A stretch of 64,000 nt of DNA, taken from Verrucomicrobiales bacterium. Lineage in GTDB: Bacteria > Verrucomicrobiota > Verrucomicrobiia > Verrucomicrobiales > DEV007. Location: the NCBI GenBank assembly GCA_029212615.1, contig JARGPJ010000005.1:62001-126000 (forward strand). Reading direction: 5' to 3'. The notes under the pieces were generated by a model that made no database searches, was not told where the DNA came from, and saw only the letters and a program-made list of their open reading frames with translations. The position numbers and the translations under genes were made by a program. Below are positions 2,832-16,528 of the stretch, one piece after another (the stretch's first letter is position 1; every line of letters starts with the position of its first letter).

Positions 2832-4154
2832 CTAAAGGGCCTTCAGCCGAATCCGGCGATACTCCATTTGCCCGCGATCTCCCTCCAGGCCGATCGGTCC
2901 ACTTTCTGGGACCTCCATGTCGTCGGTTAAAAGTTCTCCGTTGCAAGTCGCACGCGCCACTCCCCCCTCAACCGTCACGACCAGTTCATTCCAATCCTGC
3001 GGCTTGTAATTTTCGAGATCAAAATATGGCCCGGCGAGAGGATAGTCGCGACATTGCAACTGGGGCTTCCTGATAAAGACTCCACTGTCAGCATTGGGTG
3101 TCGCACGAAACTCCAGCTTCAACACAAAATCACCGCTGAACTCCCGGGTGGTCCAGAGCTGCTGAATCCGCCGACCCTCGGCCGGAGTCTTCACCACGAG
3201 CCGCCCGTTCATCGCGGCATATCTTCCATCGTCACTCTCTTTCAGCCCGTCAAATGCGACATCCTCTTTCACTTCAACGAACACCGGCATGTCCGGTCGC
3301 GGCTTCTTCGGAGCCTTTCTCGGAGGAGTTACCCGGTACCCCCACCCCGTGAGATCATTTCCGTTAAAAAGACTTTCGAACCCTTCCTCAAGCACAAAAT
3401 CGTCGGGTTCCGGCTCCGCCAGCCCGAGAGATTCAAAGACCGGCTGAAGAGCTCTGGCCCACCGCCGGTATCCCGCCTCATTAAGGTGAAGCAAATCCTT
3501 AAACCAGACAGGGTCGGCATCGCCGTTCTCATCGGCAAACAGCGTCCACGTGTCAATAACCGTGACCTGAGGATCCCCTTTCACAACTGCTTCGAAGAGC
3601 CCATTCACCTCCTCAATCGTTTCACGTGGTCGATTCTTCTCCGCAGAACTGGGAAAGGTCCGGCAGAGAATGATGGGTGTCTCTGCGCTTTGTTCCTTGA
3701 TCGCTGCGACGATTTTCTCGAAATTCCTCGCAATCGCTTTCGGAGCAATATCGACTTCAATATCATTCGTCCCCATCAGCATGACCACCGCTGAAGGATT
3801 AAGAGAAAGAACGTCCTCCTTCAAGCGAATCAACATTCCCCGGGTGGTGTCGCCGCCAATTCCACGGTTGGCAAGCTTCATCCCCTCGAATCTCCCTTTG
3901 AAATCATCCCGCCATCCCTGAGTGATGGAGTCACCCAGAAAAACGACAGCGCCCTGATCTTTCTCAACCTCTTTCGACCAACGCTCCCGGTACTGAGGCC
4001 ACTTAGTTACATACCCGGAGTAGCGACGTAACATTCCCTCCCCGATATAACTTCTTTCCTCATCCGGGGTAGGCAAGGCAAAGGACTTTGATTCCTCAGC
4101 AAATATCGAAGAAGCAAATACAAGCACGAAGGCAAACAACAGTAGGAGTTTCAT
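2832..4154 (-). CDS. Secreted SGNH/GDSL hydrolase fused to DUF1080 (3-keto-disaccharide hydrolase) domain
   Basis: Signal peptide; blocks in canonical order: FLGDSITQG, NRGIGGDTT, MGTNDIE, DLLHLN; C-terminal GFESLFNGNDLTGW...DSGVFIRKPQLQCRDYP. Confidence 0.9.
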   Translation of the reverse strand: MKLLLLFAFVLVFASSIFAEESKSFALPTPDEERSYIGEGMLRRYSGYVTKWPQYRERWSKEVEKDQGAVVFLGDSITQGWRDDFKGRFEGMKLANRGIGGDTTRGMLIRLKEDVLSLNPSAVVMLMGTNDIEVDIAPKAIARNFEKIVAAIKEQSAETPIILCRTFPSSAEKNRPRETIEEVNGLFEAVVKGDPQVTVIDTWTLFADENGDADPVWFKDLLHLNEAGYRRWARALQPVFESLGLAEPEPDDFVLEEGFESLFNGNDLTGWGYRVTPPRKAPKKPRPDMPVFVEVKEDVAFDGLKESDDGRYAAMNGRLVVKTPAEGRRIQQLWTTREFSGDFVLKLEFRATPNADSGVFIRKPQLQCRDYPLAGPYFDLENYKPQDWNELVVTVEGGVARATCNGELLTDDMEVPESGPIGLEGDRGQMEYRRIRLKAL

Positions 4155-13701: not shown

Positions 13702-14391
13702 TTAACGGGCGCTCCATCGGTCCAGAACCTGATACAAAACCGCTCCACCGGCAGCCCCGTGCGTTGAAAAGCCTTCCACCATCTCCATCGATGACTGCAC
13801 CGTAGGCCCTCCCGCCTCGACTTCGCCGGCAAAGGCTTGAAGGAAACCGCTGAGTGACTCTTCATTCACTTCAACATGGCACTGCAGTCCCAAACACTGC
13901 TCGCCCCATTGGAACGCCTGCACCGCGCAAATCTTTGAAGAAGCCAACAACTTTGCCGCCGGAGGCAACTGAATCTGTTCGCCATGCCAGTGAAACACCG
14001 TCATCCTGTCCGGGAGAGCTTCAAGCAGATGCTCCCCTCTCTCCCTTTTAAAAACCGGAAACCAGCCGATTTCCGCCTGAAGCCCCGGGACCACTCTCCC
14101 CCCGATCGCTAAAGCCATCATCTGGGCGCCAAGACACACCCCGAGAACCGGTTTTCCGGAATCCATAAACTCGCGAACGCGATCCATCGCAAAGGCAACA
14201 TCCGGATTCTCGATCGCATCGTTTGCGCTCATGGGGCCTCCCATGATCACAAAAGCATCATAATCCTCAAGTTCGATGACAGGAGCATTCACCGCCAGAA
14301 AACGATCCATCGAGTATCCACGGTCCTCAGCCCAGGTGGCGATTCGCGCAGGTCCCTCCTCGGCGAAATTCTGGAGACAAGCTATTTTCAT
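13702..14391 (-). CDS. Class I glutamine amidotransferase (GMP-synthase-like GATase domain)
   Basis: FVIMGGPMSAND, PVLGVCLGAQMMALAIGG (nucleophile elbow), FHWHGEQ, LGLQCHVE. ATGA overlap with the upstream gene. Confidence 0.9.
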   Translation of the reverse strand: MKIACLQNFAEEGPARIATWAEDRGYSMDRFLAVNAPVIELEDYDAFVIMGGPMSANDAIENPDVAFAMDRVREFMDSGKPVLGVCLGAQMMALAIGGRVVPGLQAEIGWFPVFKRERGEHLLEALPDRMTVFHWHGEQIQLPPAAKLLASSKICAVQAFQWGEQCLGLQCHVEVNEESLSGFLQAFAGEVEAGGPTVQSSMEMVEGFSTHGAAGGAVLYQVLDRWSAR

Positions 14392-15116
14392 GGATCGAGA
14401 AGTCGGAAAAGTTGACCGGGATAACTCGTACTATCCGGCCCCGCCTTACCCGCTTTTTTCATGCCAGCCCCATAGGTAATGCTGTCACCAAGACAAACAA
14501 CTGTCGAACGATCGCCAACCCACTCCAGCCCGGCCAATGCCTCGTGAAGCGCTTCCGCAATAACCGCATACCCTTCCGCTGTGGGATGAACCCCGTCTTT
14601 CACCCCGCTGTTCGTTTCATTCCGAATCAGGGACGCAGGAAGCTCACTTGCGCCGCCCCTTTCCTTGAAAAGCGCGTGAATATCGACAACCTGCACCGCC
14701 GGTCGATCCCCCGCTTTTCGAATGAGTTGATTCAATGCCAAAACCCTCTCATCCGGCGAGATCCCTCCATACGCCTCCCTCGAATGCCGGGCCAGCAAAT
14801 AGCCGCTATGACAGGGGGGAATCGTCATGATCAACAGCCGACTGCCGCTCTCGATGATCTCAGCAATGAGAGAAGCAAGGTTCGCTTCAAAAGCAGCCGG
14901 TGAGCTCAGCTTCCGGGAATTGAGAGCGTCATTCGTACCGACCATTAAGATGACGAGGTCCGGCTCCCGCGAGAGCACATCCTCTTCAAGTCGCTCTAAC
15001 AAATCAGCCGAAGAATTTCCTCCCACCCCTGCATTGATCACCGTCAAGGCCGCGGCCGGGCTCACTGAAACGTGAACAAGCGCGAGAAACAGGAACGATA
15101 AAAACAAGCGGATCAT
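14388..15116 (-). CDS. Secreted SGNH/GDSL hydrolase with circularly permuted block order
   Basis: Signal peptide MIRLFLSFLFLALVHVSVSPAAA, then LTVINAGVGGNSSADLLERL (block II), VGTNDAL (block III), DGVHPTAEGY (block V), and C-terminal STVVCLGDSITYGAGMKKAGKAGPDSTSYPGQLFRLLDP* (block I). In-frame TGA at 15135-15137 rules out an N-terminal extension. Confidence 0.9.
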   Translation of the reverse strand: MIRLFLSFLFLALVHVSVSPAAALTVINAGVGGNSSADLLERLEEDVLSREPDLVILMVGTNDALNSRKLSSPAAFEANLASLIAEIIESGSRLLIMTIPPCHSGYLLARHSREAYGGISPDERVLALNQLIRKAGDRPAVQVVDIHALFKERGGASELPASLIRNETNSGVKDGVHPTAEGYAVIAEALHEALAGLEWVGDRSTVVCLGDSITYGAGMKKAGKAGPDSTSYPGQLFRLLDP

Positions 15117-16528
15117 TCCCTCTTCAAAGCCGGCTCAAACACTTGAAAGAAATCGACCTGAGCTGATCCACCGTCAACAGGGCGGAGCTCCAGAGTATGC
15201 TCAGTATTTGGAAGGACTTCAGCCAGCCTTACCACGAAGCTTTCACCATCCTCTCCCTGGAAGTTCACCTCATCACTCACGGAACGCCTCACTTCAAAGG
15301 TGAAGAAATCTCCGGCACGATTCCTTTCAGCGCGCCGCCAGAGATAGGGACTGATTTCAATCTGTCCGGAATCACTCGTGAAAGGCTCGAAGGCATTCCC
15401 CTGTCCATCGGGTCCTGTCACGCTGCCTTCAATCCTGTAGTCACCACGATCACTTGTCATCTCGATCCTCCAGGTTTGGGGAATCACCTCATCCCGCAGG
15501 GTCACTCCGTGAGGCGACTGATCACGGGGGTTCGAACCTTTACCCACTTTAGCATTCCGCGGATCCGGCAAGACATAACTCATGAGAAATGCGTCGATCT
15601 CCCGGGCGGGCCTTCCATCGATGAACACCTCAAAGCGCCCCCCTTCCGGGGACTGTTGACCAATCAGGTCAATGCGATTCCCTGTGAACCGAACCGTGTA
15701 TCCGCCCTCATCACCCACCTGAGGCTGAATCTTGCGTTCACGGGATGATGGCTCATAGCTGAAGGGGGAATCAGGTTGAAAATGAGCAGCTATGTTAGAG
15801 TTCACAATCCATGCCCCATAGTCACTCTGGTGCACGGCATCCTTCAAGAGAGCCTCAATCGGAAGATCGTTTTCTCTCAAGTAGGTCGCCCAGTCACGTC
15901 GGCTTTCCACAAACTCGACTCCATACTTCCGGCACACAGCCCTCACCGCTTCGACATCCTGGTCGGGAGAATTTTCCGACTTCCCCCACATCTCCTGACC
16001 TCTCAATCTCCAGTGGATACTGGGAACAATGATATCCGCAGTCGTCTGGGACTGAATTTCAACGATCAGTTTTTCAAGGTCCTCCGGCTTGCCCAGCGTA
16101 TAGGTGATCACAAGATCCGGCTGATCCGGAACAAGGAGATGCCTTGCCCATCCTCTCAGGTATTGCCACGGGCAGGAGTTACCGACCATTTTTTCATAGC
16201 GGATCTCCGGCGCATTGGGAAACCGCTTCGGAATCTCCTCCTGCCAGAACTCACCACTACCAAGCATGTTCGTGTAACTCGAACCGATCGCCCAAATCAG
16301 GAATGGTCGATCCGGTTCTAAACCGTTCTTCAATTTATGCATTGTCAGGGCAAGATGCTGCCCCGCCTTCGGACCGGATTTAGCGACATATTTCGCCGCC
16401 CCCTCCGGTTTTCCCATCGAGAAAACAGGCTCATCCGTGATGAGGCTTCGCCCCGCTTCCCGGGACTCAACCCTGTCAGGAATGAGACCTAACAGAGTTA
16501 AAAACACGATCAGCACCCCCCTGCTCAT
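15113..16528 (-). CDS. Divergent SGNH/GDSL-like secreted hydrolase with C-terminal beta-sandwich
   Basis: FLIWAIGSSYTNMLG (block I-like), YEKMVGNSCPWQYL (block II-like), DAVHQSDYGAWIVNSNIAAHF (block V-like); signal peptide. Confidence 0.7.
   Translation of the reverse strand: MSRGVLIVFLTLLGLIPDRVESREAGRSLITDEPVFSMGKPEGAAKYVAKSGPKAGQHLALTMHKLKNGLEPDRPFLIWAIGSSYTNMLGSGEFWQEEIPKRFPNAPEIRYEKMVGNSCPWQYLRGWARHLLVPDQPDLVITYTLGKPEDLEKLIVEIQSQTTADIIVPSIHWRLRGQEMWGKSENSPDQDVEAVRAVCRKYGVEFVESRRDWATYLRENDLPIEALLKDAVHQSDYGAWIVNSNIAAHFQPDSPFSYEPSSRERKIQPQVGDEGGYTVRFTGNRIDLIGQQSPEGGRFEVFIDGRPAREIDAFLMSYVLPDPRNAKVGKGSNPRDQSPHGVTLRDEVIPQTWRIEMTSDRGDYRIEGSVTGPDGQGNAFEPFTSDSGQIEISPYLWRRAERNRAGDFFTFEVRRSVSDEVNFQGEDGESFVVRLAEVLPNTEHTLELRPVDGGSAQVDFFQVFEPALKRE

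Follow-up and report, generated by a model that had tools for sequence, protein, structure and literature searches.

A circularly permuted SGNH/GDSL protein with block I at its carboxyl terminus, a probable secreted esterase

Gene organization at the locus

The window, the whole 64,000-nucleotide stretch of Verrucomicrobiales DNA analysed here, carries on its reverse strand a gene coding an SGNH/GDSL protein whose conserved sequence blocks are arranged in a circularly permuted order (Table 1). The coordinates and translation given to this open reading frame in a preliminary description of the sequence are correct, and the in-frame TGA that the description placed upstream of the ATG is found at positions 15137-15135. 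The gene belongs to a conserved run coding xylose-isomerase-like, divergent SGNH-like, permuted SGNH, amidotransferase-like and sulfatase proteins. Its start codon shares bases with the end of the gene before it, and its stop codon with the start of the gene after it, the sequence being ATGA at both junctions. The two overlaps are also present in genome G027 (locus L140); in G006 (L139) the downstream overlap is present and the upstream genes are close without overlapping. Such conserved overlaps with the neighbours argue against an assembly error or a frameshift at the permuted gene. Both the 471-aa upstream protein and the amidotransferase-like downstream gene are conserved partners in G006 and G027.

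The upstream 471-aa protein appears to be secreted and features a GSSYT-like block I and a DAVH-like block V in canonical order, with no clear block III Asn. A PDB search with its sequence gave no informative relative. Elsewhere in the window (2832-4154, reverse strand) a canonical SGNH domain is fused to a 3-keto-disaccharide hydrolase domain.

Table 1. Position of the permuted gene, its sequence elements and its flanking genes in the window
Feature	Coordinates	Strand	Remarks
Circularly permuted SGNH/GDSL hydrolase gene (predicted activity)	14388..15116	-	242 aa, blocks II-III-V-I
Signal peptide, amino-terminal, ~residues 1-22 (MIRLFLSFLFLALVHVSVSPAA)	15051..15116	-	Sequence reading; lower model confidence
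Block II, residues 28-34 NAGVGGN	15015..15035	-	G33 invariant in alignment A1
Block III, residues 60-63 GTND	14928..14939	-	Invariant in A1
RH motif, Arg110-His111	14784..14789	-	Invariant in A1
Block V, residues 174-177 DGVH	14586..14597	-	Invariant in A1
New linker, residues 198-204	14505..14525	-	Rotation-scan peak at 198-202; without secondary structure
Block I at the carboxyl terminus, residues 209-214 LGDSIT	14475..14492	-	Ser212; Cys208 just before, invariant
Helix alpha1 as carboxyl-terminal helix, residues 232-242 YPGQLFRLLDP	14391..14423	-	H232-240 in the model
471-aa divergent SGNH-like protein, upstream	15113..16528	-	Overlaps the permuted gene by 4 bases; PF13472 weak, E 0.005
Class-I glutamine amidotransferase-like protein, downstream	13702..14391	-	PF00117; start overlaps the stop of the permuted gene

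Block order and profile matches

The signal peptide stops just ahead of strand beta2, and residues 25-30 are the first strand of the mature chain in the structural model. The mature polypeptide then presents VINAGVGGN (block II), VGTND (block III), DGVHPT (block V) and CLGDSIT (block I), or G-N-DH-S when the blocks are named by residue. CLGDSIT, whose GDSIT motif spans G210 to T214, ends 28 residues short of the carboxyl terminus; the final segment is SYPGQLFRLLDP, with the YPGQLFRLLDP helix running to the stop. The order II-III-V-I with block I last, as first described, is found both in the sequence and in its homologues. G33, N62, R110, H111, D174, H177, C208 and S212 are among the invariant columns of alignment A1 (60 sequences). 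Gly33 and Asn62 are expected to be the oxyanion-hole residues, while Asp174 and His177 of block V should be the catalytic Asp and His, with Ser212 as nucleophile. The canonical superfamily order is S-G-N-H with the Ser near the amino terminus; the G-N-DH-S order assigns the protein to a permuted branch of the SGNH superfamily rather than to its standard members.

The Pfam profile Lipase_GDSL_2 (PF13472) matches the native protein over residues 24-185, starting only at profile position 33, with 89.2 bits. When the protein is rotated the match becomes one uninterrupted stretch over profile positions 1-178 with 100.8 bits; both scores exceed the curated cut-off of 32.9 bits. The single full-length match agrees with the proposal that joining the termini recreates a standard SGNH hydrolase. 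Every rotation of the mature protein was also scored against a profile built only from 59 canonical relatives, which were picked by similarity to the permuted family and are not a random SGNH sample. Against this profile the native protein scores 122.5 bits (profile 36-204), and the best rotations, cut at residues 198-202, reach 141.6 bits (profile 2-204). Rotation raises the score in 58 of 59 permuted homologues, with a median gain of 28.6 bits. Shifting block I to the carboxyl terminus of canonical proteins changes their score by a median of -36.2 bits (54 proteins).

No NCBIfam model reaches its cut-off for the permuted protein, and profile searching of the PDB found no chain with the permuted order. 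Annotation by profile returns a plain GDSL lipase with a truncated amino-terminal match, which makes the family easy to overlook. Four other PF13472 matches that start late in the profile occur in the genome of the window; they have no block I match to the permuted profile and look merely divergent.

Predicted structure

AlphaFold2 run on alignment A1 gave a confident SGNH-type model (pLDDT 92.7, pTM 0.88), in agreement with the fold anticipated in the preliminary description. Its first half consists of E25-30, H36-46, E54-58, H61-65, H73-89, E93-97 and H104-110, and its second half of H121-135, E141-144, H146-152, H167-170, H180-197, E205-210, H212-215 and H232-240 (E, strand; H, helix). The alpha/beta/alpha five-strand fold is present, with strands 25-30, 54-58, 93-97, 141-144 and 205-210, so that the block I strand, E205-210, sits in the sheet. 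Confidence is lower between block I and the last helix (blocks of 74-84).

The model of the canonical relative L061 (alignment A2) has a mean pLDDT of 83.4, owing to a disordered amino terminus, and a core above 90. It shows E64-69, H71-74, H77-85, E88-91, H99-113, E117-121, H138-154 and E158-162, and further elements up to H232-250. These are the same elements as in the permuted model, but E64-69, H71-74 and H77-85 come first rather than last, and H232-240 of the permuted protein is the counterpart of H77-85. The matches listed by Foldseek against the PDB are SGNH enzymes or designs on such scaffolds, with SGNH structures at the top. Their sequential TM-scores of 0.40-0.56 (query-normalised) are expected, since one strand and one helix cannot be aligned in order.

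Distribution and conservation

A scan of 85,488 species genomes yielded 126 relatives, 80 of which were kept. They include 59 intact proteins with a carboxyl-terminal block I (L001-L059) and one frameshifted copy of the permuted gene (L069). A profile search in 295 genomes of the phylum of the window gave matches at E<=1e-30 in 32 genomes. All but one of the matches listed extend to the last positions of the profile or close to them, and therefore include the carboxyl-terminal block I; the exception, G325, is a canonical protein. In a 250-genome sample of Bacteroidota, the phylum of L005, a match was found in three genomes, the centre included. Permuted and canonical proteins were sorted with two profiles, one in native and one in rotated order, which left few rows undecided. 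After removal of duplicates the collection holds 91 permuted and 59 canonical proteins. The permuted homologues are mostly from Verrucomicrobiota and Bacteroidota, with some from Planctomycetota and Lentisphaerota, so that the search for relatives with the same block order proposed at the outset found them in four phyla. Since about 90 distinct homologues in four phyla have it, the rearrangement is a natural circular permutation, real and of old date, and not a sequencing quirk.

The Ser, Gly, Asn, Asp and His residues are all kept in 89 of the 91 permuted rows. In L085, one of the two rows lacking the full set, a contig end cuts the sequence before block II. The other row is a degenerate permuted domain inside the 1448-aa protein of L137 (521-4864, reverse strand), probably catalytically dead, in which Ser is replaced by Asp, Asn by Val and His by Arg. 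The Cys that precedes GDS is present in every permuted row (91/91) versus 11 of the 59 canonical rows.

Origin of the permuted order

The closest canonical relatives (L061, L063, L075, L080, L144, L149 and L177) are from Planctomycetota, Verrucomicrobiota and one Hydrogenedentota MAG. Like the permuted proteins they have the RH motif and a Cys just ahead of GDSIT, and most also have a YP-like pair after GDSIT. Between helix alpha1 and strand beta2 these proteins have hardly any loop (KRGYPEELATLLN-LEVINSG in L144), and it is exactly at this junction that the permuted chains start and end. Comparison with the canonical relatives thus agrees with the early placement of the permutation point between the first helix and the second strand.

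In a tree for which permuted rows were rotated to canonical order, 49 permuted and 34 canonical representatives lie on either side of one branch (SH-aLRT 94, all columns). The same split, supported at 85/64 and present in 87% of the bootstrap trees, is recovered when only core columns from block II to block V are used, a choice that keeps the moved segment from influencing the result. The permuted proteins form one clade in these unrooted trees, with moderate support. The standard explanation for a permutation is that a canonical gene is duplicated and the outer parts are then lost. We infer that the permuted family arose in this way, from a tandem duplication. A search for tandem intermediates, carrying one copy of block I at each end, found none. 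L050 gave a double match to the block I regular expression (ILLIGSSLT), which lies in a hydrophobic amino-terminal stretch and is probably not a second block I, and L152, a candidate at first on account of an early match to a canonical query, has block I only at its carboxyl terminus. A tblastn search of plasmid records returned no full-length copy of the permuted gene.

Comparison with known permuted SGNH proteins

Circular permutation is already known in SGNH proteins: AlgX, AlgJ, WssI and PatB1 are permuted with the order H-S-G-N or variants of it (PMC9487903, PMC4148444, PMC10302187, PMC5697884). AlgX, AlgJ and WssI resemble the family described here in having an SGNH fold with permuted blocks, an extracytoplasmic location and a glycan substrate (PMC9487903, PMC4148444, PMC10302187). 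Their order is H-S-G-N (or H-S-G-Y/D), cut between blocks III and V, whereas the present family has the order G-N-H-S, cut between blocks I and II. They carry the motifs GTSYS and DXH and have the Asn replaced, while GDS, GTND and DGXH are intact here. AlgJ and AlgX bear in addition a cap domain, and the three proteins are acetyltransferases of exopolysaccharide synthesis. PatB1, of the DHHW family, likewise has a permuted SGNH core (PMC9487903), but its order is H-S-G-N, its motifs are KDS and TDHHW, and it is a transferase for secondary cell wall polysaccharide. By the published definition of the AlgX/AlgJ and DHHW groups (PMC9487903) the permuted protein of the window belongs to neither, having another block order than H-S-G-N and unaltered DGVH and GTND motifs.

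The canonical GDSL_2 lipase/acylhydrolases L061, L075, L080, L144, L149 and L177 have Cys-GDSIT followed by YP (or nearly so), the RH motif, an INAGVGGN-like block II and the same fold, as in the permuted family, but their block I is amino-terminal and alpha1 runs straight into beta2. L061 is 31-32% identical to permuted proteins in pairwise BLASTP. The acetylxylan esterases Axe2 and AlAXEase and the acylhydrolases 4iyj, 3p94 and 1yzf belong to the solved structures nearest in sequence and fold; they have the canonical order, and only their block II-V part aligns sequentially with the permuted protein.

A literature search on permuted SGNH/GDSL/acetylesterase proteins, covering mostly sources outside subscription journals so that an earlier report could be missed, returned only AlgX, AlgJ, WssI and PatB1 as permuted SGNH proteins and no G-N-H-S order with intact motifs. 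The SGNH superfamily thus gains a second, different permutation beside the AlgX/PatB1 type. Natural permutations that retain the whole catalytic machinery, have unpermuted relatives and occur in several phyla are good cases for tests of protein rewiring. Here one can point, residue by residue, to the parent-like proteins, the cut site (the alpha1-beta2 loop, which is very short) and the new linker, so that re-permuting the enzyme offers a way to test what the rewiring does to folding and activity.

Proposed mechanism and alternatives

The gene very likely codes for a secreted SGNH serine esterase with a naturally circularly permuted chain. The mature polypeptide would begin at strand beta2, which bears block II, and continue through blocks III and V. 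A short new linker (~198-204) would connect the old carboxyl-terminal helix to the old amino-terminal strand beta1 bearing block I, and the chain would finish after helix alpha1. The fold would then close like that of an ordinary SGNH enzyme: Ser212 would be the nucleophile and Asp174/His177 the rest of the triad, and the Ser212 backbone, Gly33 and Asn62 would form the oxyanion hole. We infer catalytic activity and, as the most likely role, carbohydrate O-deacylation (as an O-acetylesterase) in polysaccharide breakdown.

A misplacement of block I by a sequencing or assembly error, or by misread gene boundaries, has a practically negligible probability. The genome of the window is a draft assembly of 21 contigs and one relative (L069) has a frameshifted copy, but the same order in about 90 distinct homologues from many independent assemblies, isolate genomes included, already refutes such an error, which the preliminary description had named as a possible objection; the start and stop overlaps with neighbouring genes, largely conserved in two other genomes, speak against it as well. 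The fold could also be genuinely permuted without being that of an ordinary hydrolase, the protein acting as an acyltransferase like AlgX, AlgJ, WssI and PatB1 or as a carbohydrate-binding protein. The permuted SGNH proteins of the literature are indeed O-acetyltransferases. This role is nevertheless unlikely, as the known transferases have altered motifs (DXH, and Tyr/Asp for the block III Asn) where GDS, GXND and DGXH are kept here, the closest relatives of the permuted family are canonical SGNH hydrolases, and the gene context is one of glycan breakdown.

It is very improbable that the carboxyl-terminal GDSIT completes the active site of a neighbouring molecule in a domain-swapped dimer or intertwined oligomer. 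The lower model confidence between block I and the last helix (74-84) would fit such an exchange, but AlphaFold2 models the monomer with confidence (pTM 0.88) and places the block I strand in its sheet, and the termini coincide with a very short loop of the canonical fold. Several independent, convergent origins of the permuted order, a reading left some room by the moderate one-clade support on core columns (85/64), are somewhat less improbable than domain swapping and still hardly to be expected: a single branch sets the permuted rows apart in both trees and in 87% of the bootstrap trees, and the Cys before GDS separates all 91 of them from most canonical proteins (11/59 with the Cys). Returning to the permuted serine esterase, it is likely that the G-N-H-S proteins are an undescribed and active esterase family with one origin from a canonical GDSL acylhydrolase, whose first strand and helix moved to the carboxyl terminus, and that the family then spread over Verrucomicrobiota, Lentisphaerota, Planctomycetota and Bacteroidota, becoming part of operons for glycan utilisation and of multidomain proteins that act on glycans.

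Putative function and genomic context

The neighbours of the permuted genes vary between lineages and no one substrate stands out. A PF12831-type FAD-dependent oxidoreductase gene (FAD_oxidored) lies on the same strand in 36 loci, all belonging to the 45 loci that the first scan gave for Bacteroidota. It usually adjoins the permuted gene directly, before or after it and sometimes overlapping (loci within L004-L058). Clusters that look like the SusC/SusD type, a reading of the sequences without a profile, are found near the permuted gene in 18 and 21 loci. Other neighbours include GH28, GH88, GH95, GH20 and 3-keto-disaccharide hydrolase. Fusions of the permuted domain occur as well. In Flavobacteriia its partners are beta-helix proteins; in the phylum of the window they are CBM4_9, DUF6259, or NPCBM plus melibiase.

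Such surroundings, whether neighbouring genes or fused domains (GH28, GH88, GH95, melibiase, CBM4_9, sulfatases), point to an O-deacylase acting on carbohydrates, and the nearest PDB sequences include acetylxylan esterases. The permuted protein may well be a secreted O-deacylase, probably an O-acetylesterase, that removes acyl groups from complex glycans; the group removed could possibly be other than acetyl.

Some fused proteins from the phylum of the window are large. L132, L134 and L136 code for proteins of 1134-1201 aa with an amino-terminal permuted SGNH domain and DUF6259, to which L134 adds CBM4_9. A single protein coded at L143 (2406-5540, forward strand) combines NPCBM, a GH36-like melibiase and a carboxyl-terminal permuted SGNH domain.
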